Shown piece after piece: positions 1,014-16,304 of a stretch of 35,048 bases of DNA. How positions within the stretch are numbered: position 1 is the first letter of the stretch; each line of letters opens with the position of its first letter. The position numbers and the translations under genes were made by a program. The DNA comes from Acidobacteriota bacterium. Its GTDB lineage: Bacteria > Acidobacteriota > Terriglobia > Acidiferrales > UBA7541. Location: NCBI GenBank assembly GCA_028877145.1, contig JAGWOX010000010.1:1-35048 (forward strand). Direction: 5' to 3'. Under the pieces are notes generated by a model, which did no database searches, was not told the DNA's origin, and saw only the letters and a program-made list of their open reading frames with translations.

Positions 1014-1071
1014 CGCCTGACGGATACGGATGCGGGGCAATTGCAGGAACTCGGATAGGTCGGGGCAGCGG

Positions 1072-2553
1072 CTAATCTGACTCGCAGGCCAGTCGAGTCA
1101 GCGTCTGGAAGTGGTAGCCCATGACGGCCAGGGTCATCGCGGTATCGAAGGCGTGCCGGTAGCGCGTAGCTGCATCGATCAGGAATTTCCAGTAGGCGGC
1201 GCGGTCGCGACTCAGGACGCCCTGTTTCAATACCGAGCGGCAGAAGGCGACGTAGTCGGAGAATCGCCGGTCCTGGCGATACACCGGGTGGTATTCGGCC
1301 AGGAAGCGGCGAACGCGCTGATAATAGGCCTCGGCGCTGTAGATGCGCTCCAGAATCGACCGATAGCCTTCCACCAGCTTTTCCGGATTCATCTTCGGAA
1401 TGAAATTCAGCCGGAAATCCATGTTGTCGCCGTGACCCTCGTGCAGGATGCGGCCTTCCTTCATCAGCCGGCGATAGAGCTGCGTGCCGGGCACGGCCTG
1501 CAGCAGGCCGACCATGGCGAGCGGAATCGCGCTCTCCTCGATGAATTGCACTTGCCGGTCGAAAACATCATCGGGATCGTTGTCGAATCCCACGATGAAG
1601 CCGGCCATCACTTCCATACCGAATTCGCGGATGTGGCGCACGCTATCGAGCAGGCTGCGGCGCGTATTCTGCATTTTCTGTGCCTGCTTCAGGCTGGATT
1701 CCACCGGCGTCTCGATGCCCAGGAAGACGCGCGTGAAGCCGGCGTCCTTCATCATCTGGAGCAGTTGCGTATCGTCCGCCAGATTGACGGAGGCCTCGGT
1801 GAAGAACGTGAAGGGGCGCCCGTGGCGGTTGTTCCACTCGGAAAGCGCCGGCAGCAGTTCCTTCACCTTGCGCTTGTTGCCGATGAAATTGTCGTCGACG
1901 ATGAAGACCGATCCGCGCCACCTGGCGTCGTAGAGCAGGTCGAGTTCGGCGGTCACCTGCGCGGGAGCCTTCGTTCGCGGCACACGTCCATAGATTTCGA
2001 TGATGTCGCAGAACTCGCAATTGAACGGGCAGCCGCGGGAATACTGGATGGCCATGCCGCTGTAATATTTCGGCTGGATCAGGTGGATCTCGGGCAGGGG
2101 CGTCTTGGCGAGGGAGGGAAGCCCCATGGCGCGGTAGACCGGCTTTGCCGTTCCGGCATCGATATCGGCCGCGAGCCCGGCAATCAGTTCCTCGGCCTCG
2201 CCGATCACCACATGGTCGGCGTACTGGTTCATGTCCTCGACGCTGCTCGTAATCGGCCCGCCCACGACCGTCTTTAGCCCGCGTTCGCGGCAGCGTGCCA
2301 GCATGCGCAGCATCGGTTTCTTCTGCACCAGCATTCCGCTGAAGAGCGCAATGTCCGCCCAGTCCAGATCGGCCTCGGTCAGACGGCGCACGTTCGTATC
2401 CACCAACCGTTTTTGCCAATGTTTCGGCAAAAGCGACGCCACCGTCATCAGTCCAAGTGGCGGATAAGCGGACCGCTTGCCTTCAAACGGCAGCGCGTGC
2501 TTGAAGCTCCAATAGGTATCAGGCCATTCGGGATAAATCAGCAGTGCTTTCAT
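1072..2553 (-). CDS. B12-binding-domain radical SAM protein, DUF4070 type (HpnP-like)
   Basis: A 493-residue protein. The N-terminal ~150 residues form a B12-binding-like Rossmann domain without the DxHxxG histidine, so cobalamin would bind without a protein His ligand. The radical SAM core follows with CPFNCEFC; C175, C179 and C182 bind the 4Fe-4S cluster. The segment IIEIYGRVPRTK after the cluster and the C-terminal part (FNFIPK-like, ILERIYSAEAYYQRV) match the DUF4070 family. That family includes the hopanoid C-2 methylase HpnP, but also many uncharacterised proteins, so substrate and methylation site cannot be read from sequence. The ATG at 2553 follows GAAAGAG with a short spacer. A weak promoter (TTGCAA, 17 nt, TAGTCT) lies on the minus strand upstream. 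No hopanoid genes are nearby. The family call is firm and the HpnP role is only possible. Confidence 0.85.
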   Translation of the reverse strand: MKALLIYPEWPDTYWSFKHALPFEGKRSAYPPLGLMTVASLLPKHWQKRLVDTNVRRLTEADLDWADIALFSGMLVQKKPMLRMLARCRERGLKTVVGGPITSSVEDMNQYADHVVIGEAEELIAGLAADIDAGTAKPVYRAMGLPSLAKTPLPEIHLIQPKYYSGMAIQYSRGCPFNCEFCDIIEIYGRVPRTKAPAQVTAELDLLYDARWRGSVFIVDDNFIGNKRKVKELLPALSEWNNRHGRPFTFFTEASVNLADDTQLLQMMKDAGFTRVFLGIETPVESSLKQAQKMQNTRRSLLDSVRHIREFGMEVMAGFIVGFDNDPDDVFDRQVQFIEESAIPLAMVGLLQAVPGTQLYRRLMKEGRILHEGHGDNMDFRLNFIPKMNPEKLVEGYRSILERIYSAEAYYQRVRRFLAEYHPVYRQDRRFSDYVAFCRSVLKQGVLSRDRAAYWKFLIDAATRYRHAFDTAMTLAVMGYHFQTLTRLACESD

Positions 2554-2706
2554 ATGCTCTTTCGGCTGTCCGACGCCTCGAAACGCAAAACCAGACTAGT
2601 CGGAAGCCGGGCCGGTTGCAAGGGGAATTCCTGCATTTCGACAGCCAATTGGCCTCGAAATACAGGTGATCTGCGGGCCGTTGGCCGCTAAACGCCAATT
2701 ACTAAT

Positions 2707-2727
2707 CACGGGCCGCATCCGCCCGTG
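2707..2727. repeat. Hairpin in the radical SAM / sulfatase divergent spacer
   Basis: Perfect 7-bp arms CACGGGC and GCCCGTG around a 7-nt loop, in the 315-bp spacer 2554-2868. No T-run follows on either strand, so it is not a simple terminator. Role unknown. Confidence 0.45.
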
Positions 2728-2792
2728 GGGTGATGCCGCTCCACATTCCCTTACGGGTAGGGCTCCCTTTGGACCCCCGCTTTCATTCACAC

Positions 2793-2810
2793 ACTGTCAC
2801 TTCTGACAGT
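2793..2810. promoter_or_regulatory. Candidate operator dyad upstream of alkyl sulfatase
   Basis: Perfect 7-bp inverted repeat ACTGTCA-CTTC-TGACAGT, 58 bp before the sulfatase start. A second dyad, GGAGCC-N8-GGCTCC, follows at 2814-2833. The symmetry suits a dimeric repressor site (TGTCA-N4-TGACA) or an RNA hairpin in the leader. No regulator gene is adjacent, so the role is inferred from position only. Confidence 0.4.
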
Positions 2811-2868
2811 TGAGGAGCCGTTCTCCTGGCTCCAAGGTTGTGTCAGATGCCCACGCAAGAGGCTTGAC

Positions 2869-4833
2869 ATGGGAGTGGAGGTTGAAGTGAAACAGGCTAC
2901 CGCGCCGAGCAAAGCAGCAGGGGAACCAAGGGAAGCGACCTCAATAACCAGGCAGACCAATGCCTCAATTCTTAGGCAGTTGCCATTCGATGATGTCCAG
3001 GCGTTCGACGACGTCAGGAGAGGCTTTATGGCGCCCTTGGCGGACGGCGGTGTAATTAAGAACGATCGGGGTCAACCGATTTATGATCTCAGCCAGTTCT
3101 CCTTCCTCAGGGAAGGGGCTCCGGCCCCCGACACCGTCAATCCCAGCCTATGGCGGCAGGCGCAGTTGATCATGAAAGGCGGACTTTTTGAGGTGACTCG
3201 AGGAATCTACCAGGTTCGCGCCGCTGACTTATCCAACATCTCCTTCATCGAGGGCGAGGATGGCCTGGTTGTCGTGGATCCGTTGATTTCGGCCGAGACC
3301 GCGAAGGCCTCACTCGATCTCTATTACGCGAATCGGCCGGAGAAGTTGCCGGTCGTTGCCGTCATCTATTCGCATAGCCACGTCGACCACTTCGGCGGTG
3401 TTCGCGGCATCGTGTCGGAGGAGGAAGTGAAGTCGGGAAGGGTGAAGGTCCTAGCGCCGGACCAGTTCCTGGAGCACGCTTCTTCCGAATTCGTGTATGC
3501 GGGCAACGCCATGAGCCGGCGGGCCAGCTACATGTACGGGACTTTGCTGCCTGCGGGCCCGAAAGGCCAGGTAGGCGCCGGGCTTGGCCCGACCACCTCG
3601 GTCGGCACGATTACGCTGATCCCGCCGACAGATATCATCAAGGAAAATGGCGAAAAGCGCCGGCTCGCCGGCCTCACATTCGAATTCTGGATGGCGCCCA
3701 ATTCCGAAGCGCCGTCCGAGATGTTCTTCTACATACCCGAGAAGAAGGCTCTATGCACCGCCGAGGACGCCACGCACACGCTGCACAATACCTACACGTT
3801 GCGCGGAGCCAAAATCCGCGATCCGCTGGCTTGGTCCAAGTATTTGAACGCAGCCATTCATCGCTGGGGCGGGGAAGCGGAGGTTCTTTACGCGCCGCAT
3901 CATTGGCCCGTCTGGGGCAGCGATCGCATCGTCGAGCATCTCAAAAATCATCGCGACACATACCGCTACATCCACGACCAGGCCGTGCGACTCCTGAACC
4001 ACGGCTACACGATGATTGAGATTGCCGAGATGCTCGAATTGCCGGAGAGCCTCGCAAATGTGTGGTCCACTCGCGGCTACTACGGCAGCTTCAATCACGA
4101 CGTCAAATCGACGTACGTCAGCTACCTCGGCTGGTTCGATGGCAATCCGGCAACCCTGCACCCATTGTCGCCGGTCGAAGCGAGCAAGCGCTACGTCGAA
4201 TTCATGGGCGGCGCCGAGGCTGTCTTGAACAAGGCCATGGCTTATTTCGATAAGGGCGAATATCGCTGGGTCGCCCAGGTGGTGAATCACGTCGTGTTTG
4301 CGGAACCCCAAAATCAAGTCGCGCGGAACCTGCAGGCTGACGCCCTCGAGCAGCTTGGATTCCAGGCGGAGTCTGGCCCGTGGCGTAATTTCTACCTGAC
4401 TGGAGCGAGGGAACTTCGCGAAGGCGTCCCGAAACTTCCCTCGGTCAGTACGGCAAGCCCCGACGCCATCCGCGCCATGAGCCTCGAACTTCTGATTGAC
4501 TGGATTGGCACGCGGATCATTGGCCCCAAGGCCGCCGGTAAAACGATCACCCTGAACGTGAAGTTCACCGATACGGGCGAGGAGTGCGTGATCCGTCTGG
4601 AGAATGGCGCGCTCAACTCCGTGATGGGTAAGCAGGCCGAACGCTCCGACGCGACTATCACACTGACACACGAGATTCTGGAAGAAGCACTGCTCGGCCG
4701 TATCAGTCCATTGATGGCGATCACAACCGGCAAGATCAGGGTCGAAGGCTCCGTGAGCAAGATCACCGAACTCGCCTCGCTCTTGGACACTTTCGATTTC
4801 TGGTTCAACATCGTCACGCCGAACGCGGCGTAA
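2869..4833 (+). CDS. Alkyl sulfatase, SdsA1/YjcS type (class III metallo-beta-lactamase fold)
   Basis: A 654-residue protein, the usual family length. It is predicted to hydrolyse primary alkyl sulfates (such as dodecyl sulfate) to alcohol and sulfate with two zinc ions. Domain order is a metallo-beta-lactamase domain (~100-350), an all-helical dimerisation domain (~360-520) and a C-terminal SCP2-like lipid-binding domain (~530-650). Metal ligands are visible: the HSHVDH motif gives H169, H171, D173 and H174, with E280 (NSE), E299 (TAED) and H344 (APHHWP). The ATG at 2869 has AAGAGG six bases upstream. Secreted family members such as Pseudomonas SdsA1 have a signal peptide. Here the first 45 residues are charged and lack a hydrophobic segment, so the enzyme looks cytoplasmic. 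A six-codon ORF (ATG at 2848, TGA at 2866) sits just ahead and may be a chance leader. Confidence 0.92.
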   Translation: MGVEVEVKQATAPSKAAGEPREATSITRQTNASILRQLPFDDVQAFDDVRRGFMAPLADGGVIKNDRGQPIYDLSQFSFLREGAPAPDTVNPSLWRQAQLIMKGGLFEVTRGIYQVRAADLSNISFIEGEDGLVVVDPLISAETAKASLDLYYANRPEKLPVVAVIYSHSHVDHFGGVRGIVSEEEVKSGRVKVLAPDQFLEHASSEFVYAGNAMSRRASYMYGTLLPAGPKGQVGAGLGPTTSVGTITLIPPTDIIKENGEKRRLAGLTFEFWMAPNSEAPSEMFFYIPEKKALCTAEDATHTLHNTYTLRGAKIRDPLAWSKYLNAAIHRWGGEAEVLYAPHHWPVWGSDRIVEHLKNHRDTYRYIHDQAVRLLNHGYTMIEIAEMLELPESLANVWSTRGYYGSFNHDVKSTYVSYLGWFDGNPATLHPLSPVEASKRYVEFMGGAEAVLNKAMAYFDKGEYRWVAQVVNHVVFAEPQNQVARNLQADALEQLGFQAESGPWRNFYLTGARELREGVPKLPSVSTASPDAIRAMSLELLIDWIGTRIIGPKAAGKTITLNVKFTDTGEECVIRLENGALNSVMGKQAERSDATITLTHEILEEALLGRISPLMAITTGKIRVEGSVSKITELASLLDTFDFWFNIVTPNAA

Positions 4834-4866
4834 AGCACCTCTGTCGGATCTGTCGGCGCGTCGGGC

Positions 4867-4931
4867 GGGACGAGCAAATGCTCGCACGTACGGCGCGCGT
4901 CCCTCTCTTTCCCACAGGGCCCGCTCGTCCC
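4867..4931. repeat. 65-bp inverted-repeat-bounded structure between sulfatase and kinase
   Basis: Outer arms GGGACGAGC (4867-4875) and GCTCGTCCC (4923-4931) are perfect 9-bp complements. Inside are a small GAGCA-AA-TGCTC hairpin and a CGTCCC copy that could pair alternatively with the left arm. It may end sulfatase transcription without a T-run, or be a REP-like element. Confidence 0.45.
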
Positions 4932-5023
4932 TATGCCTGCCCGGCAAGCCGCAATACAGGAAGGCAAAACCGGTGTAAAATCTGCGCCACGCAGCGGCGG
5001 TTCGTAGCCCCCTTGGTCCAGTT

Positions 5024-5040
5024 TCCATTCCAGGAATGGA
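5024..5040. promoter_or_regulatory. 17-bp perfect palindrome upstream of the Ser/Thr kinase
   Basis: TCCATTCC-A-GGAATGGA lies about 90 bp before the kinase start and 45 bp after a TGTAAAAT that could be a -10 element (4973-4980). A further CGAGAG...CTCTCG dyad occurs near 5060-5085. This is a candidate operator, with no direct evidence of the binding protein. Confidence 0.35.
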
Positions 5041-5128
5041 CCGAGGAGGGTGGTTTGACGAGAGATCGGGTGGGCACCTCTCGACGGCGTGAGCGGGCGG
5101 GTGAAATAGGTTTGCGGGAGCCACTGAC

Positions 5129-8100
5129 CTGAAAACGATAGGCAGATATGAGGTGGGGACCCAACTTGGCCGCGGAGCCATGGGCGAGGTGTACCAAGCG
5201 CGCGATCCGCTGATTGGCCGCCCGGTAGCGCTGAAGGTCATTACCAGCGGCTTGGCAGGCCAGCCCGAGTTGCTTGACCGTTTCTATCAGGAAGCGCGAT
5301 CGGCCGGAACACTCCAGCACCCCAACATCGTCACGATTTACGACCTGGGCAAGGAAGGCGAACTTCCCTTCATCGCTATGGAGTATCTGAGCGGTGAGAG
5401 CCTGGAGAAGATGATCGCGCGCCGGCAGTCCATGGCGATTTCGAGGAAAGTGGGCTACATCGTCCAGACGTGCCGGGCGCTCGAATACGCGCACAAGCAC
5501 GGCGTTGTGCATCGCGACATCAAGCCGGCCAACATCATGGTGACAGCCGAAGGCGTGTTGAAAGTGGTGGATTTCGGCATCGCGCGCCTCGTCGACGCCT
5601 CGAAGACACAAACCGGCGCGCTCATCGGCACACTCGGCTACATGTCTCCGCAGCAGCTTCGTGGCGAGCGGGCCGACGAGCGTTCCGATATCTGGGCGGT
5701 CGGCGTGATGTTTTACGAACTGCTCGCCTTTCAGAGGCCGTTCAGCGGCGACAATCCGGCGGCCCTGGTATTGAGCATTATTTCGAGCGAGCCAGCCCCG
5801 CTCGCGAACGCGGCGCCCGGCTGCCCCGCGGAAGTCGAAGCCATTATCTTCCGCATGCTCCAGAAGGACGCGTCGCGTCGCTATCAATCGATGGAAGAAG
5901 CATTGCTCGACCTCGATCCGGTTTGGAAGCGGCTGCAAGGGGAGCAGGTCAACGAGTTGGTGGCCCGGGGCGAACGGCTTATTGAAGAACGCGAACTGAA
6001 GCAGGCGCAACTCGTGCTTCGCGAGGCGTTGCAGGTTGACAGCACTTGCCAGCAGGCCAAAGCGTTCCTCGACACGATAAGCCGCGAACTTCGCCGGCAG
6101 GACGCGCTGCCGCAGGTGCAGGAGCGTATCGGCAAGGCGCAAGATCTGCTGGCGGCTGGCCAGTGGCAACAAGCGAGGGCAGAAGCCCAGGCGGCTCTGA
6201 ACCTTGATTCCATGTGTGAGCAGGCGAACGAACTGCTGGCCGCAGCGGAGCAGGCGATTCAGCGCGCCGATGAGATCGACAGGAAACTTCGTATGTCGAA
6301 AGAGCGGCTGGCGGCCGGAGAACTGACCGACGCCGATCGGACGTTCGAAGAGATTCTTACGCTCGACCCGAAAAATCAGCAGGCGAGGGAACTCCGCCGA
6401 CAGGTTCGCGAGGAGATCGATCGGCGTGACCATCGCAAGCAGGCAATCGCGCGAGTCCACGGTCTGATCTCGGGAGGGTTCTTCGAGCAGGCTGTCGGTG
6501 CAGCCGATGTGGCGCTGGCCGATGATCCGGGCAATGCCGACCTGCTTTCCTTGCGCGAAAGCGCCCGTGTCGGCCAGAGGGAACAGCAGCGGCGAGACGA
6601 TCTCGACAAGCGAATTCGCGAGATAGAGTCCCGGATCCAGCGCGACGAGTTGACCGATGCGATCGATTTGGCGCGAGACACCATCGCCACGCTCGGAGCC
6701 GACACAAGGCTTGCCCAATTGCTTCAATCCGCCGAAAGCGAGCGCCAGCACCGGGAAACGAGGAAGGCGCAGAATGAGAAAGTGGCCGAGGCGCAAACGC
6801 TGCTCGATGCAGGCAAGACGCTCGAAGCATCGCAAGTTCTCGACCATGCCATCGCCACGCAACTGCTCAACGCCTCCGATCCGCGCGTCGACTCCTTGTA
6901 CGGAGAGGTCGAGAAGAGAAACAAGAGGGAGCAAGCGGCAATCGCTCCGCCTCTCACGCCAACCGTGCAGCCCCAGGCTGCGCCGTCGGCCGCGCCAGTG
7001 GCGAAGAAGCGTTTCCCCTTGGGCATCACTGCCGCTGCGGCGGCCGTGCTCCTCCTCGCTGGCGGACTCTATTTCGCGTTCCATCATCGTTCCGTTGTGC
7101 CGCAGACGCGGAGCGACCTCAATTTGCCCGGATCTTCTCCATTGCCGGCACAAGGCGGCTCGCCGCAGACGCAGACGGAATTGAGCCAGCCGCCGTCCCC
7201 GACTGCGCAGCCACCCGTCGATCCTTTGCGTCAGCAGCAACAGCAATTCATGGAGCAGGCGCAGAAGCTAGTCGTCGCCGGCCAATTCGATCAGGCGCTT
7301 GAAGTGGTTGATCGCGCGTTGAAACTCAACGGGCCGCTGCAAACGGACCTTGAACATTTGCGGGCCAGCATCCAGAAGGCTTCGAGCGACAAGGCCGCTC
7401 GAGCCGCGCTTCAGAAGGAAGACCAGCTTTGGAACACGGCTGTCGCCGCATTTGGCCGAAATGATTTCCCAACGGCCACGCGCGATTTCCGCCGGGTGGC
7501 TGCGATGCGGAACGGCGTTCACCAGACCGAAGCGCAAGATTATCTGAACAACCGGATTCCGCAGGCTCGCGCCGGCCGGCAGCTTCAACAGTTAATCGGT
7601 GAATTTGGCGCGGATTCCGGCAACAAAGCCGCTCTCCAACAGCTTCAGGGACAATTCCGAAAATTGGAGAATGTCGGCGGGACGGTCGGGAGCCAGGCGC
7701 GCGACTACGCCGAGAACCGGATTCCCGCTCGCATCGACGCGCTTCTCCAGCCGGCGACAGCTGCGGCGGGTTCGCCAAGCGCTCCCTCAGCTGGCAATGG
7801 AGGGAACGTGAAACCCGCGGCCGAGGTCAACGCCTACAATTCCTTTCTCGCGTTGCCCTCCAATCGTCCACAGGACATCATTTCGAGTGGCGAGACTTTT
7901 CTGAAGAATTATCCGCAGAGCCCCAACGCCGGTGTGGTGTATTCGCGATTGACCCGAGCGTATCAGATCACGGGCCAGGACCGGAAAATGTTGGAAGCGG
8001 GACGAAATGCGCTGAAGGTGAATCCCGACAACGTCGACGTTCTCTCCTCCCTGGCCTATTCGATTCCCCGTCATGTCGATGTAAAAAATCCGGCCAGCGG

Positions 8101-8839
8101 GCAGCTTTTGCTGGAAGTGAAGCAATATGCCGGGCGCGCAATCTCCTTGCTGTCCAAAATGCAGAAGCCGGCCAATCTCTCCGAGGAGCAATTCACAACG
8201 GCTCGGAACAGCGAACTTGCCGCCTGCCACAGCGGTCTTGGACTCATTGATTTCTATCAGAACAACATTCCGGGAATGATTGGCGAGATGGAGCAGGCGG
8301 TCAGCCTGAATCCCAGACCCAACTCCGAGGACCAATATCTGCTGGGCGTCGCCTACGCGAAGGCCGGACGTTGGTCCGACGCGGAGAACCCCTTGGAGGA
8401 GTGCAGCGCGAATTCCGGTCCGATGCAACAGCGCTGCCGCTCCGAACTGGCCGACGTGGAAAAGAACGTTCCGCCGCCCAGTCTTTTTGCTCTTCACAAT
8501 GATTGCTTGACCGTGGTGGGCGGGCCGGCTGGCGGCAATGGGGCAGCGGCCATCGCGGCGCTTCACAACCACTGCAGCCAGGCGCTCTCGGTGATCCCTG
8601 TTGTGCTGAACCCGAAGGGCAAGGGCGGCGATGGAGACTGGTGCAAGGTCGACGGCAACGGCTCGCAGCTCGTCCAGCCAGGAGGCGATCTCGCACTGGG
8701 CGACTCTTCGCTGGTTTATTGCGAGAAGTCAAATTGTTCCGATGTTCATGTGAAATGGAACGCCACGTTCGCCTCCGATCATCAGCGTACCCCCGCGCCA
8801 CAGGTGCAAATCTCGCACAAGTGCCCCAAGGCACGCTAA
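5129..8839 (+). CDS. Transmembrane Ser/Thr protein kinase with TPR-like regions and Cys-rich C-terminal domain
   Basis: About 1236 residues; numbering is from the proposed CTG start. The Hanks-type kinase domain spans ~5-270, with glycine loop GRGAMGEVY, catalytic K36 (VALKV), HRDIKPAN (H128, D130) and DFG at 148-150. The APE motif is replaced by SPQQ. Residues ~275-600 are Gln/Glu/Arg-rich helical repeats resembling TPRs. One membrane helix lies at ~632-653, then a Pro/Gln linker, more TPR-like repeats, and a final ~110-residue domain with six Cys. The second half should lie outside the cytoplasm and could sense a ligand or partner. The first ATG/GTG in frame (GTG 5153) would cut into the first kinase beta strand. 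The frame extends upstream as LKTIGRYEV from CTG 5129, with GGGAG eight bases before it; an in-frame TGA at 5102 bounds the extension. It is transcribed alone. Confidence 0.88.
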   Translation: MKTIGRYEVGTQLGRGAMGEVYQARDPLIGRPVALKVITSGLAGQPELLDRFYQEARSAGTLQHPNIVTIYDLGKEGELPFIAMEYLSGESLEKMIARRQSMAISRKVGYIVQTCRALEYAHKHGVVHRDIKPANIMVTAEGVLKVVDFGIARLVDASKTQTGALIGTLGYMSPQQLRGERADERSDIWAVGVMFYELLAFQRPFSGDNPAALVLSIISSEPAPLANAAPGCPAEVEAIIFRMLQKDASRRYQSMEEALLDLDPVWKRLQGEQVNELVARGERLIEERELKQAQLVLREALQVDSTCQQAKAFLDTISRELRRQDALPQVQERIGKAQDLLAAGQWQQARAEAQAALNLDSMCEQANELLAAAEQAIQRADEIDRKLRMSKERLAAGELTDADRTFEEILTLDPKNQQARELRRQVREEIDRRDHRKQAIARVHGLISGGFFEQAVGAADVALADDPGNADLLSLRESARVGQREQQRRDDLDKRIREIESRIQRDELTDAIDLARDTIATLGADTRLAQLLQSAESERQHRETRKAQNEKVAEAQTLLDAGKTLEASQVLDHAIATQLLNASDPRVDSLYGEVEKRNKREQAAIAPPLTPTVQPQAAPSAAPVAKKRFPLGITAAAAAVLLLAGGLYFAFHHRSVVPQTRSDLNLPGSSPLPAQGGSPQTQTELSQPPSPTAQPPVDPLRQQQQQFMEQAQKLVVAGQFDQALEVVDRALKLNGPLQTDLEHLRASIQKASSDKAARAALQKEDQLWNTAVAAFGRNDFPTATRDFRRVAAMRNGVHQTEAQDYLNNRIPQARAGRQLQQLIGEFGADSGNKAALQQLQGQFRKLENVGGTVGSQARDYAENRIPARIDALLQPATAAAGSPSAPSAGNGGNVKPAAEVNAYNSFLALPSNRPQDIISSGETFLKNYPQSPNAGVVYSRLTRAYQITGQDRKMLEAGRNALKVNPDNVDVLSSLAYSIPRHVDVKNPASGQLLLEVKQYAGRAISLLSKMQKPANLSEEQFTTARNSELAACHSGLGLIDFYQNNIPGMIGEMEQAVSLNPRPNSEDQYLLGVAYAKAGRWSDAENPLEECSANSGPMQQRCRSELADVEKNVPPPSLFALHNDCLTVVGGPAGGNGAAAIAALHNHCSQALSVIPVVLNPKGKGGDGDWCKVDGNGSQLVQPGGDLALGDSSLVYCEKSNCSDVHVKWNATFASDHQRTPAPQVQISHKCPKAR

Positions 8840-8866
8840 GCCAACCACCGGGCCCGGTGCGCGCAG

Positions 8867-8895
8867 TTGACAGGCATCATCGCGCAATGTAATTT
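8867..8895 (+). promoter_or_regulatory. crcB: Sigma-70-type promoter of the fluoride-response operon
   Basis: TTGACA (8867-8872), exactly 17 nt, then TAATTT (8890-8895). Transcription should start near 8902, just upstream of the fluoride aptamer. Confidence 0.8.
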
Positions 8896-8907
8896 TGATT
8901 CGCATAA

Positions 8908-8990
8908 CTCGGGCGATGGAGTTCGCCCTAACCGTCCTTATATGGGACTGATGACTCCTGGCCGCTCGCTGGCGACCGGGAGTTTTTTTA
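8908..8990 (+). ncRNA. Fluoride riboswitch (crcB motif) with overlapping intrinsic terminator
   Basis: The aptamer matches the crcB-motif consensus. Stem GGGCGA (8911-8916) / TCGCCC (8923-8928) encloses the loop TGGAGT. TAACC follows, then a second stem GTCC (8934-8937) / GGAC (8945-8948), then CTGATGACTCC. The loop GGAGT (8918-8922) can pair with ACTCC (8954-8958) as the fluoride-binding pseudoknot. The same ACTCC begins the left arm of a terminator: 8954-8963 pairs with 8974-8983 and is followed by seven T (8983-8989). The two folds exclude each other. Fluoride binding should hold ACTCC in the pseudoknot and allow read-through into crcB; without fluoride the terminator forms. This is a transcriptional ON switch. 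Confidence 0.95.
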
Positions 8991-9027
8991 TGCCCGGCGC
9001 CACGGGCGTGCGGAAAGTGGATATAAG

Positions 9028-9399
9028 GTGCGGATCTTTCTTCTTGTTGTTTTCGGCGCCGTGGGTACGCTGGCCAGGTACGGCCTGCAGGGAGTGGTAC
9101 AGCACCGGGTCAACTCGACGTTTCCAGCCGGAACGCTGACGGTGAATTTGCTTGGTTGTTTCCTCTTGGGCGGGGTGGCCCAGTACGGATTCCACCATTT
9201 GACGATTCCGCCGGAATGGCGGATCGCCATCACCGTGGGCTTTTTCGGTGCATTCACAACCTTTTCTTCTTTCAGCTATGAAACCGTTCGTATGTTCGAG
9301 GATGGGGCGTGGTCAAGTGCCGCTTTTTACGTTGGCTTGAGCCTGATCGGCGGATTACTGGCGGTAATGCTGGGCATACGCCTGGCGGATTTGTTGTAG
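9028..9399 (+). CDS. crcB: Fluoride ion channel CrcB/Fluc
   Basis: A 123-residue, four-helix membrane protein of usual Fluc length. Dual-topology dimers of this family export fluoride across the inner membrane. Family signatures are visible: GAVGTLARY near the N-terminus, GTLTVNLLGCFLLGG in helix 2, and GFFGAFTTFSSFSYE in helix 3, which holds the Phe-box and Na+-site region. The start is GTG at 9028, with GGAAAG about ten bases upstream. The gene lies 38 bp after the terminator of the fluoride riboswitch, which independently supports its function. It is followed after 17 bp by the DUF190 gene, so both are probably induced together by fluoride. Confidence 0.95.
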   Translation: MRIFLLVVFGAVGTLARYGLQGVVQHRVNSTFPAGTLTVNLLGCFLLGGVAQYGFHHLTIPPEWRIAITVGFFGAFTTFSSFSYETVRMFEDGAWSSAAFYVGLSLIGGLLAVMLGIRLADLL

Positions 9400-9416
9400 C
9401 GGAAGGCGGGTCACTT

Positions 9417-9809
9417 ATGCATTCTACGGGAAGCTCGGTTCCTACCCTTGGCGGTCCCGGAGGGCGGATGCACGAAAGATTTGAAGGCGAACGCACGCTG
9501 ATGCGCATCCACATTGGTGAATCGGACCGGTGGCATGGCAAGCCACTCTACGAAGCCATCGTCGAGCTGTTGCGCCACGAGCATTTCAGTGGAGTCACGG
9601 TCCTGCGCGGTGTCGGCGGGTATGGTTCCTCCAGCATCTACCACACGGAAAAGGTTCTGCGTCTCTCACAGGACCTGCCGATCGTGATTGAGGTCGTCGA
9701 ATATACGGAGCGGATCGAGCAGATTCTGCCTCGTCTCGATGAGATGATCGAAGGAGGCTTGCTCACTCTCGAAAAGGTGCGCGTGATCCTGTACCGTCCC
9801 AAGAAATAG
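9417..9809 (+). CDS. DUF190 family protein, CrcB-linked
   Basis: About 130 residues from the ATG at 9417, which has GGAAGG nine bases upstream; an internal ATG at 9468 is possible. The frame extends back into crcB (to 9309), but that part is out-of-frame overlap and unlikely to be translated. Core motifs GKPLYEAIVELLR, GVTVLRGVGGYG and DLPIVIEVVE mark DUF190, small proteins with a PII-like ferredoxin fold that are often found beside crcB. No enzymatic residues are evident, and a regulatory or accessory role in fluoride resistance is inferred from linkage. It shares the riboswitch-controlled transcript with crcB and is closed by the terminator at 10053-10091. Confidence 0.88.
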   Translation: MHSTGSSVPTLGGPGGRMHERFEGERTLMRIHIGESDRWHGKPLYEAIVELLRHEHFSGVTVLRGVGGYGSSSIYHTEKVLRLSQDLPIVIEVVEYTERIEQILPRLDEMIEGGLLTLEKVRVILYRPKK

Positions 9810-10052
9810 CATCCGTTTTCGATGGGGCAGTCTCGCAACGCACAATCGGCGCGCCCTGGCATCGGCCAACGCCTGCTCGGCGATGCGGCAAACCTCATGA
9901 AGCAGCTTTCGGATTTCCACTTCCGGAGGAACCACTCGCTGCCAAAAACAAAGAGAGCGGCTCTCCGCTGGGCTGGTCGACGGTCGGGACGATGCGATCT
10001 GCGGGGGTCGGACAACTAGGCACAATTCTCTTCGGGAGTGAGGGGAGAGCAA
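9810..10052. other. Spacer after the crcB-DUF190 operon
   Basis: The 326-bp gap 9810-10135 holds only short frames. A 65-codon plus-strand ORF at 9822-10019 is Arg/Ser-rich, lacks a ribosome site and shows no recognisable motif, so I do not call it a gene. The terminator at 10053-10091 is the only supported element. Confidence 0.5.
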
Positions 10053-10091
10053 GGGAGCCAGGCCTTCGGTGGTCTGGCTCCCTGATTTTTT
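10053..10091 (+). terminator. Strong intrinsic terminator of crcB-DUF190
   Basis: 12-bp stem GGGAGCCAGGCC (10053-10064) / GGTCTGGCTCCC (10071-10082) with one G-U pair and a 6-nt loop, followed by TGATTTTTT. On the minus strand the T-run is missing, so it mainly serves plus-strand transcription, though the hairpin also follows the convergent gene ending at 10136. Confidence 0.9.
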
Positions 10092-10135
10092 GAGCTAGGC
10101 TTCGACAATGGGTCAAAGCCCGTACCCAGACTCGA

Positions 10136-10771
10136 CTACTGATCCTGTTTGTAATTCTGGACCTGCTGCACGGTGATGGTGGCTGGGCCGACACAAGCTG
10201 CCTCGCCGTTGCCGCCGTTCAGTATGTTCCAATTCACTGTGATGGTGTGCTCTCCCTGCCCGGGATCGGGGTAAACGAAGTTGAACGAATGGGCCGATAG
10301 GGTGCTCTCGGTGAGCGTGATGCAGGTGGTGGTGCAGGCGGAAAGCTCACTAAGGAACGTGGCGCTGACCTGGATAAAGCGTTGATCATAGATGACGTAG
10401 CTTCCCGCCCCCGAAGTTGCCGTTTCTGGTAACACCGCATTGCCATCAACCTGCACGCTGACGCCGGCGCCGATGTTCTGGGTGGATGTGCTGTTGTTCT
10501 GACTCAGTTTGTTACTTGTGTAGAGACCCGTGACGAGAGATGGAGTTATCAGGAGAGCTGCCTGGCCAGTGTTGGGAGTCTGAATTGTGTCGGAGAACAG
10601 TTGGCCGGGATTGCTGCTGCCGCCACTGAGTGTGCCGTCGGAGTTGCTGATGGCACATTGACTGGACTGCTGGTCGAAAACGCTATTCCCACTGCTTTGG
10701 GCCCATGCTGCTGGCCCCGCGAAGAGAAATAACGCCGAAACGAGTGAAATGACAGCTAAGTTTCGTTGCAT
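10136..10771 (-). CDS. Secreted protein of unknown function
   Basis: 211 residues from the ATG at 10771, which has GAGGTGG seven bases upstream; an upstream in-frame start at 10804 would place eleven residues before the signal peptide. The N-terminus MQRNLAVISLVSALFLFAG followed by PAAWAQ is a clear signal peptide with an AxA-type cleavage site. The mature part is rich in Ser, Thr, Asn and Gln, with alternating beta-prone stretches (SYVIYDQRFIQVSATFL, HTITVNWNIL), and suggests a small extracellular beta-sandwich. Four to five Cys (SQCAIS, SACTTTC, EAACVG) may form disulfides. I recognise no family. The gene diverges from another small secreted protein at 11004. Confidence 0.7.
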   Translation of the reverse strand: MQRNLAVISLVSALFLFAGPAAWAQSSGNSVFDQQSSQCAISNSDGTLSGGSSNPGQLFSDTIQTPNTGQAALLITPSLVTGLYTSNKLSQNNSTSTQNIGAGVSVQVDGNAVLPETATSGAGSYVIYDQRFIQVSATFLSELSACTTTCITLTESTLSAHSFNFVYPDPGQGEHTITVNWNILNGGNGEAACVGPATITVQQVQNYKQDQ

Positions 10772-11003
10772 GTCCACCTCATCAAGAAAGCAAAGATGGT
10801 ACAACCCCGGTGTATATGGCTTGGAATGAAGTTAGGAGGGGTTCTCCCGCCTGTCAGTACCCGACGGCAGAAAGCTTGCCGAATGTATAAATCCCTTAGT
10901 TTTGGTACTTTCAGACATTCGTACTGTTGCCCGATTCTCAGATGTGGCGACGTTCACGACGGTACTGATTGACGCCCGGTGGAGGGGAATCTACCATGCC
11001 GGT

Positions 11004-11558
11004 ATGGAAAAGCGCTGGAGCTTTAGAACGCGTCTGGCGAGCTTGGGACTGTTAGCGTTCGTTTTTCTCATTGTTACGCCAGGTGCGCGGGCGAATTGCC
11101 GCACCGCTGATTGCAGAACATTCCAGAAAGTGCTGGCCGAACGCAACTCGGGCTTTGCGATCTTGCGAGGGGTGGTGCTCTCGCGGCAAAGCGACAGGCA
11201 GCCGAACGAGTACGCTGGAAAGGTGAAGCTGCCGGGCGCGGAGCGGTGCACGGTGGAAGTGGTGGGAGGGAGCGAGATGTACCTGTGCGTATTCCCGCCC
11301 CAGACATACGTGAAGATGATCGAGGAATACGATCGCGTCGTTGGCGATGTGAAAGAGGCAATTCCTTCGAAATGGGTCACTTGGGAAGACAAGGGGCAAG
11401 TTCGCAAGGGCGGCCCCGGTCCTGCCAGGGCTTTTCGGGCAGGACCCGGGCGCGGCGCTCCCGTGGTAGAAATCGTGACCCTGATGCCCGCGAAGAAGCC
11501 GCCACATTTGGCCCTGGTGGTCCACCGGGGACAGACCGCAGCGGCCGTGGCCAACTAA
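11004..11558 (+). CDS. Small secreted protein of unknown function
   Basis: 184 residues from the ATG at 11004. The start was chosen because MEKRWSFRTRLASLGLLAFV begins a signal peptide (cleavage near ARA-NC); the frame itself opens at 10902. The mature protein has four Cys (NCRTADC near the N-terminus, ERCTVEV and YLCVFPP), then an Asp/Lys-rich helix and a Gly/Pro/Arg-rich tail. No family is recognised. No Shine-Dalgarno lies at normal distance. TTGACG (10969-10974), 17 nt and TACCAT (10992-10997) precede the ATG by only six bases, so the mRNA may be leaderless, though that -10 is weak. Confidence 0.6.
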   Translation: MEKRWSFRTRLASLGLLAFVFLIVTPGARANCRTADCRTFQKVLAERNSGFAILRGVVLSRQSDRQPNEYAGKVKLPGAERCTVEVVGGSEMYLCVFPPQTYVKMIEEYDRVVGDVKEAIPSKWVTWEDKGQVRKGGPGPARAFRAGPGRGAPVVEIVTLMPAKKPPHLALVVHRGQTAAAVAN

Positions 11559-11962
11559 CCGAGACAATTGACAGGCAGAGCCCTTCCAGCGAACCGGATC
11601 CGCGGTTAGCCGCCTCGTTCCAGAAATGCCGGGCCCATCCGCCTCACGTTGCCCCGAGATGAGCTTTTCTGTCGGCACTGTTTACCAGACGGCCCAGCGC
11701 CCTTAAAAAAACCTGTCCCCAAGGCTGCCAGCAAGAAGCGAATCCGCACGAGCGACCCCGCCGCAAGCCAGTCTGATGCGGGCCTAAGAGGTCAAAAGGG
11801 AGAATTTCGGAAACCACTGGTTCGGGAATAATGGAATCGCGCACCAGCCTGTCGGTAGCCGATTCAGTCACCAGCCTATCGGGCGGATGATCCAGCGGCA
11901 CTTGCCGCAACGATGGGTACATTTCGGGTACAGGCGGATGGCATGTGGATTAAGCGTTTGGA
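11559..11962. other. 404-bp spacer with possible remnant of a small zinc-ribbon ORF
   Basis: No intact gene is seen. If one C of the CCCC run at 11652-11655 is dropped, the frame ending at 11662 (KCRAHPPHVA) joins the frame 11649-11831 (RDELFCRHC, then a Lys-rich tail), which resembles a small zinc-binding protein. No start codon or ribosome site is evident, so this may be chance or a decayed gene. The rest of the spacer shows nothing. Confidence 0.3.
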
Positions 11963-12037
11963 TGGTGCCGGGGGACGGAATCGAACCGCCTACGCCAGCC
12001 TTTTCAGGGCTGCGCTCTACCAGTGAGCTACCCCGGC
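11963..12037 (-). tRNA. tRNA-Phe (GAA), CCA encoded
   Basis: A 75-nt cloverleaf on the minus strand. Acceptor GCCGGGG / CCCCGGC; D-stem GCTC/GAGC with loop ACTGGTA; anticodon stem CAGCC/GGCTG with loop CTGAAAA, giving anticodon GAA (plus-strand 12003-12005); variable loop GCGTA; T-arm GGCGG-TTCGATT-CCGTC; discriminator A and genomic CCA at 11963-11965. All stems pair. It has its own promoter at 12053-12081. Confidence 0.97.
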
Positions 12038-12052
12038 ACGGGGCAAACGATG

Positions 12053-12081
12053 ATTCTAAGGCAATGAAGCGACGGAGGCAA
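12053..12081 (-). promoter_or_regulatory. Promoter of tRNA-Phe
   Basis: On the minus strand TTGCCT (12081-12076), exactly 17 nt, then TAGAAT (12058-12053). The start would be near 12046, about 9 nt before the mature tRNA 5' end. Confidence 0.65.
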
Positions 12082-12187
12082 AGGAGCCTTCGCGGCGGAG
12101 ATTTCGCAATCTCGTTACATCAAGCACCGCTCCGGCAGCCACGGCCGGTGACTTCCTGACCGTCGGACCGGGTCCCGCCAAAGCCGC

Positions 12188-12784
12188 CTATCGCACTGTT
12201 GGTGGGATGCTCTGCAGCTTCAATTCCACCGCTCGGAGCATGAACACGTCTTCCCGGTTGTACAGGAGAACCTCGTCGAGAAGCTTCCGGTCCCCCGTGT
12301 CACAATATTTGCGCCACGTCTGGACCGCCCACAAGCCATCTTTCCCGGGCAGATCCCTCACCAAGCCCAACTTCTTTTCCACTTCTTTCAGTCCGCCGTA
12401 AAGGCCGCGCCGCCAGCATTCGGGCACCAGATCGGTGTGCTCGAATTCCCGATCGAGCACGATACCGAAATGCGTGGCGATCACCGGAAAATCGAATCCG
12501 ACCGACCGCTTCACATCGTCGGGCAGCGAACGGCCGTTGTAGGTGACGATCCTACGCACGCCGCCGAGCGTCAGCAGCAAATTCTCCCGGCTCAGGTCAT
12601 CGCCGACGAACTGAAAGAACTGTTCGCCCGATTCCCGCTCAACCCCCGATTCACCGTCAGGCTCGGCGTCCAGGATTCGCAGGCCGAGAATCGTGATGTT
12701 GTGGTTCTTGTGATCGCGGAACAGCCGCTTGTCGTTGAACGGCCCGACGTAGTCGGTTTCGATGTCCAGGTAGGCAATTTTCAT
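12188..12784 (-). CDS. RNase H-like exonuclease domain protein (YprB-type)
   Basis: 198 residues from the ATG at 12784 (MKIAYLDIET); the frame runs further upstream to 12967 but that part has no protein character. The N-terminal LDIET gives D7 and E9, the first metal ligands of a DEDD exonuclease. The middle TYNGRSLPDDV and later Asp residues resemble Exo II. The C-terminal YNREDVFML supplies the last Asp (Exo III). The ordering fits the RNase_H_2 (YprB) family of DnaQ-fold 3'-5' nucleases. Biological substrate is not known; a role in DNA or RNA processing is inferred. It is the last gene of the minus-strand block after ftsK, separated by 257 bp holding a 24-bp palindrome. A GGAG lies rather far (about 13 nt) upstream. 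Confidence 0.8.
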   Translation of the reverse strand: MKIAYLDIETDYVGPFNDKRLFRDHKNHNITILGLRILDAEPDGESGVERESGEQFFQFVGDDLSRENLLLTLGGVRRIVTYNGRSLPDDVKRSVGFDFPVIATHFGIVLDREFEHTDLVPECWRRGLYGGLKEVEKKLGLVRDLPGKDGLWAVQTWRKYCDTGDRKLLDEVLLYNREDVFMLRAVELKLQSIPPTVR

Positions 12785-12900
12785 TTGTGATCCGCTGCTC
12801 CAGTCGTGGCCAGCGGCAGATAATGCGTGATTTTGCGCGAGCAGGCAAGGGGAACTGTGCCAGGCGGGCGCGAGCCCATGTCGGCCGCCGGGAAGACGCA

Positions 12901-12924
12901 TCATCGTGAGGGCCCTCACGATGA
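12901..12924. repeat. 24-bp perfect palindrome
   Basis: Each half is TCATCGTGAGGG and its exact reverse complement, with no spacer. It lies between ftsK (ends 13042) and the exonuclease gene (starts 12784), about 117 bp upstream of the latter. There is no T-run, so it is not a standard terminator. It may be an operator or a cruciform element. Confidence 0.6.
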
Positions 12925-13041
12925 CTTGGCTTCGGCATCCTTCCCGACACACTTCGTCGGGACTCACCTCGTTCGTCGCAAAGTGCTTCGCTCAGGAGGG
13001 CAAGGCGTAAGAGTGTGCGCCGCCGCGCTCCCCGCAGTGGC

Positions 13042-15426
<2,385 letters not shown>

Positions 15427-15738
15427 CTCTAGCTCCTGGCCAAGGGAAGGCACTAGCGGAAGCGGTCGACTCCACGCGCGGGCGCTATCGCGCGTTCAAC
15501 TGACGGAGGACGAGCAGCTTGAGGATAGCGGGTCCACCCGGAACCCGGTAGGAAATAAAAGGGTTGCGATGCGTAACTGCAAATAGCGCGAGGGAACCGG
15601 GACGGCGACGGCTGCCCTTGCGGAGTTCTCACGTTACCCACCCCCGCACGGAACCCGCAATGCCGCCGCTATCCGGTAGGAAAGTCACACCGCCTGTGGC
15701 CTTTCCCCGACACACGACGGCACCACGCCACCACTGTC
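15427..15738. other. 312-bp spacer upstream of ftsK
   Basis: I see no gene, RNA or clear hairpin. A weak promoter candidate for ftsK on the minus strand (TTGCAG, 18 nt, TTATTT) lies around 15555-15585; its -35 is poor. Confidence 0.3.
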
Positions 15739-16212
15739 TTACATTCGAGGCCTCCTGAAACGAACGGAAGCAATCTCCTTCACCATGCGGTAGGCATCGG
15801 TGCGATTTTGGTAATAGCGAGGGTAGACGGAAACGGCCCGATATCCGAGTTTTTGCCAGAAGGCGATTGCGGGATGATTGTTCAGGGCCGTTTCCAGCTC
15901 CACCATCCTCACCCCTGCCTGCGCCATTTGCTTCTCGATCGCGGACATCAACGCCGATCCCACCCCGTGTCGTCGCGCCTGCTCGCCCACGTCTATCGTG
16001 ATCACGTGCGCGTACCAGTCTTGCCACACTGCAATGACGAATCCGGCGATCTCCTGGCCGAGGAGCGCGACCAGGCAGCGCGATTCGGGCAATTCCAGGT
16101 ATTCACGCAGCATGCGGCGGCTGTAAGCAATACCCGGCTCGTAGCAGGCGCGGTCGATGCGATAGAGCGCCTCAAAATCGCCGGGCTCATAGGGACGCAA
16201 GGTGAGCTTCAC
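15739..16212 (-). CDS. GNAT N-acetyltransferase, RimI-like
   Basis: 157 residues, usual for RimI-type enzymes that acetylate N-terminal amino groups with acetyl-CoA. It opens with LRPYEPGDFEALYRIDRACYEPG. The acetyl-CoA binding loop is ARRHGVGSALM (motif A, R/Q-x-x-G-x-G), preceded by the strand HVITIDV. Motif B follows as VELETALNNHPAIAFWQKLGYRAV, containing the N-x-x-A-I-x-F-Y/W-x-K-x-G-Y pattern of the superfamily. The C-terminus (YYQNRTDAYRMVKE) is also RimI-like. The substrate could be ribosomal protein S18 or another protein. It lies between rnj and ftsK on the same strand. Confidence 0.85.
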   Translation of the reverse strand: MKLTLRPYEPGDFEALYRIDRACYEPGIAYSRRMLREYLELPESRCLVALLGQEIAGFVIAVWQDWYAHVITIDVGEQARRHGVGSALMSAIEKQMAQAGVRMVELETALNNHPAIAFWQKLGYRAVSVYPRYYQNRTDAYRMVKEIASVRFRRPRM

Positions 16213-16304
16213 GTCAGGCTCTCACGGAAATTCAAGTGTACTCCCGCCCATCGCGAGCGCACAGAGGGGCTAAGCCTGAGGCGGAAGAACCGGGCTTGCA
16301 GAGT

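Follow-up and report, generated by a model that had tools for sequence, protein, structure and literature searches.

What a bacterial receptor kinase carries outside the membrane, where this part came from and whether it ends in a new sensor module are the questions raised by one gene in the 35,048-nucleotide stretch of acidobacterial DNA analysed here (the window; contig JAGWOX010000010.1, assembly GCA_028877145.1). The gene (5129-8839, plus strand) encodes a Hanks-type receptor kinase of 1236 amino acids, if translation begins at a CTG codon. The first standard start codon is the GTG at 5153, from which an open frame of 1228 amino acids extends to 8839. Inspection by eye placed the conserved kinase start IGRYEV just behind CTG 5129 and upstream of GTG 5153. 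Judged by its position and by the GGGAG upstream of it, CTG 5129 is the likelier start codon of the kinase over GTG 5153, and all residues are numbered from it. At the conserved kinase start, ATG, GTG and TTG are all absent, and CTG occupies 5129-5131 (by eye).

The kinase domain (5159-5890, plus strand) matched PF00069 in the Pfam scan (E 1.1e-52; 179.5 bits, cut-off 31.7). Glycine loop, VALK lysine, HRD and DFG form a complete set, with motif starts at residues 13, 33, 128 and 147, and the protein is a Hanks-type kinase of the RD class. The domain is followed by a cytoplasmic TPR/coiled stretch (5918-6928, plus strand) with Pfam TPR matches, which is present in congeneric kinases too, and then by a single membrane helix found by hydropathy (residues 633-651; 7025-7081, plus strand). 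This helix is the sole strong hydrophobic segment, with a mean hydropathy of 2.07 compared with 1.31 for the runner-up, and the KKR in front of it suggests, by the positive-inside rule, an N-in, C-out topology. Altogether 585 residues lie C-terminal to the helix. Pfam TPR matches, most of them below family cut-offs when parts were scanned alone, and a helical structure model mark this exported half as TPR-like. The preliminary description had announced a kinase with about 580 TPR-like residues outside the membrane, ending in a six-Cys domain of a type it did not recognise, and this layout was confirmed.

The exported half consists of three parts, the first of which is shared with related kinases. 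The helical/TPR stretch of residues ~697-883 (7217-7777, plus strand) has homologues in the exported part of kinases from congeners. Three of these (G002:C60, G003:C160 and the own-genome paralogue G000:C239) are 58-60% identical to the window kinase over residues 1-567 and share with it the kinase domain, cytoplasmic TPR stretch, membrane helix and first exported part. In the exported part, identity to the window kinase was 35% for L025 (residues 623-889), 37% for L026 (residues 697-872) and 51% for L027 (G000:C239), there over residues 811-883 only. The layout agrees with that of the window kinase as far as about residue 889 (L025) or 872 (L026); all three kinases end in a TonB_C-like domain, which is above the Pfam cut-off in G003 only. 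The TPR block and the Cys tail that make up the rest of the window kinase are both lacking from these three congeneric kinases. The paralogue G000:C239 (L027:1832) contains an in-frame TAG just behind DFG, while the congeners carry intact copies; the gene may be broken, or the sequence may contain an error.

Kinases of the window type were detected in 14 of the 89 genomes of the acidobacterial family at E 1e-120, own genome included, and the shortest complete one among those read has 735 amino acids. The ends of 13 complete kinases were compared (L025-L027, L079-L086, L089 and L091), while L087 and L088 are truncated where their contigs stop. A Pfam scan covered eight of the 13 ends, with L083-L086 and L091 left out. 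Among these eight, TonB_C was above the cut-off in two and below it in three, and DUF4440/SnoaL was above it in one and below it in two. Because related kinases in the family end in differing domains, TonB_C-like or SnoaL/DUF4440-like, we regard the exported end as a variable slot, of which the window protein is one more filling.

The filling begins with a block of residues 890-1116 (7796-8476, plus strand), which by identity, tree and TPR fold appears to be a captured exported TPR protein. It is only these residues, approximately, that are 45-51% identical to standalone exported TPR proteins, which were found in all five genomes of the genus. The own-genome copy is 51% identical, so that the block is a distinct sequence. 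At E 1e-8, standalone relatives were present in 84 of 89 family genomes, and at E 1e-12 in 160 of 399 class genomes, more distant TPR proteins included. Thirty standalone proteins (L020-L024 and L033-L057), which were the best matches from the genus and family searches, were examined. Each of the 30 carries a hydrophobic segment at its N-terminus, as judged by eye, and a C-x9-10-C pair close to its other end, and stops 6 to 46 residues past the matched block. Both Cys of the pair are invariant in an alignment of 24 rows, and the window block shares the pair as C-x10-C (1092/1103), with a third Cys at 1033. The standalone proteins, such as G000:C13, thus match window residues 890-1116 with the same pair; they have their own signal-like N-terminus and neither kinase nor tail, whereas the window block lies inside a kinase, has no signal peptide of its own and is followed by 120 residues. 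In the Pfam scan, generic TPR models were the sole matches to the block.

A tree calculated from 31 rows joined the window block to the five standalone proteins of the genus with a support of 100/100, and therefore the copy would stem from this lineage, having been taken at the base of the genus or close to it. The five genus proteins grouped together with the window block outside (support 80/81), and the branch of the window block is long. Given the long branch and this modest support, we are unsure of the exact point of capture relative to the genus base. Among the matches listed for the 89 family genomes and the 399 class genomes, no second fused example was found. All matched frames of the family search besides that of the window have at most 547 amino acids, with one exception: a frame of 873 amino acids in G099, which is longer than the standalone protein that it encloses, and this protein has a signal-like N-terminus of its own. 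Among the matches listed in the class search there were two further frames, of 581 and 604 amino acids. The full architecture of kinase, block and tail was found in one genome assembly and not in the four congeners, which are 91-97% complete.

Behind the block, residues 1117-1236 (8477-8836, plus strand) form an orphan tail. These last 120 residues contain the six Cys (1126, 1149, 1172, 1198, 1203 and 1232). A codon score was calculated for residues 1121-1236 and was 0.098 in frame compared with -0.341 and -0.335 in the other forward frames; none of 3000 letter shuffles reached the in-frame value. Within the gene, the tail is at the low end of the range of the kinase's own in-frame segments (0.080-0.374, these segments being part of the training set). 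The best reverse frame scored 0.019, and with a cruder score the reverse value was 0.079 compared with 0.109 in frame, with one stop in the reverse frame. By these measures the tail residues look like coding sequence. An ALHN[DH]C repeat was considered as a tail-internal duplication and dropped, its score being reached by 20 of 200 shuffles.

Relatives of the tail were sought with the single sequence throughout, a procedure that distant relatives would escape. No Pfam family was matched with a limit of E 10 (although the filters let few matches above about 0.1 through), there was no match in NCBIfam, and the best matches among PDB sequences (E 0.36) and PHROGs (E 0.22) were taken as chance. 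As to known families in these four collections, the absence of a recognised type noted in the preliminary description therefore stands for the last 120 residues. The tail found only itself in its own genome and among plasmids, and besides itself nothing below E 0.24 in the other frames of the window. Among 61 genomes, own included, there were three non-self matches (E 3.8e-4 to 0.0053), none convincing; these matches sit among other open frames, including a long opposite-strand frame that presumably encodes a protein resembling ribosomal protein L2. Among 399 class genomes, six non-self matches over 25-67 residues (E 0.0015-0.009) were likewise not convincing. Three of these (L060, L062 and L063) lie against larger frames that look different; stops interrupt L059 and L061, and the frame of L064 has 61 amino acids. 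Only the tail itself was found in 396 phylum genomes at E 0.003 and, with a 74-aa core of the tail, in 95 order genomes. Pattern searches gave 16 matches in genome contigs and 12 in viral contigs, none of which was confirmed. The survey of other acidobacterial genomes (61, 399, 396 and 95) thus yielded a few chance-level matches and nothing more. As just a single genome yielded the tail, it is, on this evidence, not a recurring module, and the results do not establish the new sensor module that the preliminary description suggested.

Structure prediction gave different results for the two parts of the C-terminal end. The model of the exported half had a mean pLDDT of 79.6 and a pTM of 0.54, and the TPR block was well modelled, with most of it exceeding 90, whereas the tail folded loosely (pLDDT 38-64 by ten-residue blocks). 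Fold matches of the block (VIA-align) included LGN (17.8), TTC0263 (17.3), PilF (2fi7; Z 16.9), PilW (16.3) and MamA (15.5). By its model the block has a predicted TPR fold, and since many TPR proteins are close together in score, no function follows from these matches. For the tail, the low-confidence model contained helices at 1119-1130 and 1138-1154 and strands at 1170-1175, 1178-1181, 1194-1198, 1207-1211 and 1225-1229; folded alone without an alignment, the tail reached a mean pLDDT of 36. Two helices followed by five short strands are hinted at here, not a settled fold. Because the fold search of the exported half bore on the TPR block and barely on the tail, we claim no new fold for the tail.

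The gene lies in a segment that differs between the window and the congener G002. Both flanks of the window are conserved in G002 (1061-4828 and 11960-16213), whereas 4829-11959 had no blastn match (E 1e-5) in the 14 kb of G002 compared, which there has ~2.7 kb of other sequence. The segment contains the kinase gene, crcB, a DUF190 gene and two frames without a Pfam match, and its right edge is a tRNA-Phe gene (11963-12037). GC content here is like that of the surroundings (0.597 compared with 0.611 for the window). The alkyl sulfatase of the left flank was not found at E 1e-60 in the three congeners other than G002. At 9028-9809, the crcB gene, whose product we take to belong to the fluoride channel family, adjoins the DUF190 gene, and the longest DUF190 frame overlaps crcB. 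The frames at 10136-10804 (minus strand) and 10902-11558 (plus strand) look exported and contain several Cys, without a Pfam match at E 0.001.

Taken as a whole, the protein is probably a lineage-specific receptor kinase that arose by fusion with an exported TPR protein, and it would end in an orphan, possibly disulphide-braced cap. When the genus arose, or close to that point, a duplicated kinase would have received at its end a copy of the genus's exported TPR gene, in the position that a TonB_C-like or SnoaL-like domain occupies in sister kinases. The exported block would retain the binding partner of the standalone protein, so that the kinase would read the amount or state of this partner in the envelope. 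The input would likely be the partner of the standalone protein because the arm appears to be a copy of that resident exported protein. To our knowledge, the standalone family has no known binding partner, so that the idea of a retained partner depends on an identity of about one half. Binding outside could alter the pairing of kinase domains or lift a restraint and so set trans-autophosphorylation. Braced by disulphides, the tail would serve as a small cap, either stabilising the solenoid at its end or contributing a further contact; given the low-confidence model, this most likely role is a guess.

An assembly artefact could be thought of, as the fusion is present in one contig of one assembly only, yet it is very improbable: a single uninterrupted frame of 1244 codons, open from before 5129, spans both joins of the kinase gene, third-position GC is 0.62-0.82 in all 21 blocks, and the block, at 51% identity, is distinct from the genome's own standalone gene. 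The remaining alternatives concern the tail. It may be a diverged known domain, or the earlier end domain of the slot, hidden by fast change and by the use of a single sequence. The slot does hold known domains in the relatives, single-sequence searches reach close relatives only, and the low-confidence model has a small beta unit near the end; however, the tail comes after the captured TPR block and not after the kinase's own exported part, and Pfam gave no match at the limit used. We consider this unlikely but deserving of some weight. A little less probable is a lineage-specific extension with little or no function, arising when the captured TPR gene lost its stop codon and the DNA downstream of it came to be translated. 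The tail begins about where the 30 standalone proteins end, the searches gave no convincing relatives and its codon score is among the lowest within the gene, but this score is far from the forward off-frame values and from all shuffles, 120 codons are free of stops, and DNA matches to the compared stretches, including the region behind the own standalone gene, were only chance-level ones of 16-33 bases.

A true new sensor domain, in which the six-Cys module would bind a ligand, metal or redox signal and switch the kinase, appears improbable to us. Six Cys in 120 exported, coding-like residues of no known family, situated where sister kinases bear other end domains, would suit it. A useful module should recur, however, and none of the 399 class, 396 phylum and 95 order genomes contained a convincing second example; moreover, Cys codons are not rare in random frames of DNA of this kind, so that six Cys alone say little. 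Less probable still is the more specific version, in which the tail would be an undescribed fold on a captured TPR arm that switches the kinase in response to the redox or metal status of the envelope, the sensor being assembled within one genus out of a new domain and a local exported protein. We therefore retain fusion with a resident exported protein as the favoured explanation. The tail itself matters only if further examples or a structure appear. The case suggests a route by which a receptor kinase in bacteria can acquire a new input, namely incorporation of an exported protein already resident in the cell, and because the output of the kinase could report on it, the fusion offers a way to learn what the exported TPR protein found across the family binds.

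Among known systems, the PASTA kinases (PknB/Stk1) gave the best NCBIfam match of the kinase domain (residues 3-271 of the 1228-aa frame), but the score of 317.7 bits is below the cut-off of 450 and PASTA was absent from the Pfam scan, which places the window kinase outside this group. A survey from 2005 named TPR-bearing kinases in many bacteria and likened the C-terminal region of a mycobacterial kinase group to Cys-rich hydrophobins (PMC1262709); terms for Acidobacteria have no occurrence in it, and the window tail is set beside the hydrophobin-like region by description only. A narrow search of the open-access literature gave no study of this kinase-TPR fusion in Acidobacteria. The closest comparison is PknS of Xanthomonas citri (XAC4127), a transmembrane Hanks kinase which, according to passages of its description, requires its periplasmic TPR region for signalling: a truncated PknS from which this region was removed failed to complement, and the region may hold the kinase back in the absence of a stimulus (PMC13147305). 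By analogy, we infer that the exported TPR arm of the window kinase is likely to control the kinase by binding a protein of the envelope. Both proteins have an N-terminal kinase, one membrane helix and exported TPRs, a likeness of architecture alone; phosphorylation of a partner ECF sigma factor is a further trait of the PknS-like kinases. PknS has 833 amino acids and three TPRs (PMC13147305) compared with 1236 amino acids in the window kinase, and the passages on PknS contain neither a captured exported protein nor a Cys-rich tail, unlike the window kinase. A TPR-bearing periplasmic half is thus already known in a Hanks kinase, as these passages document (PMC13147305), and the exported TPR half is neither special to this protein nor a new type of sensor: its first part is common to congeneric kinases and its second seems to be a captured standalone protein. 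What is newly seen here is this second part, an exported arm that, judged by its sequence, is apparently a copy of a resident exported TPR protein.
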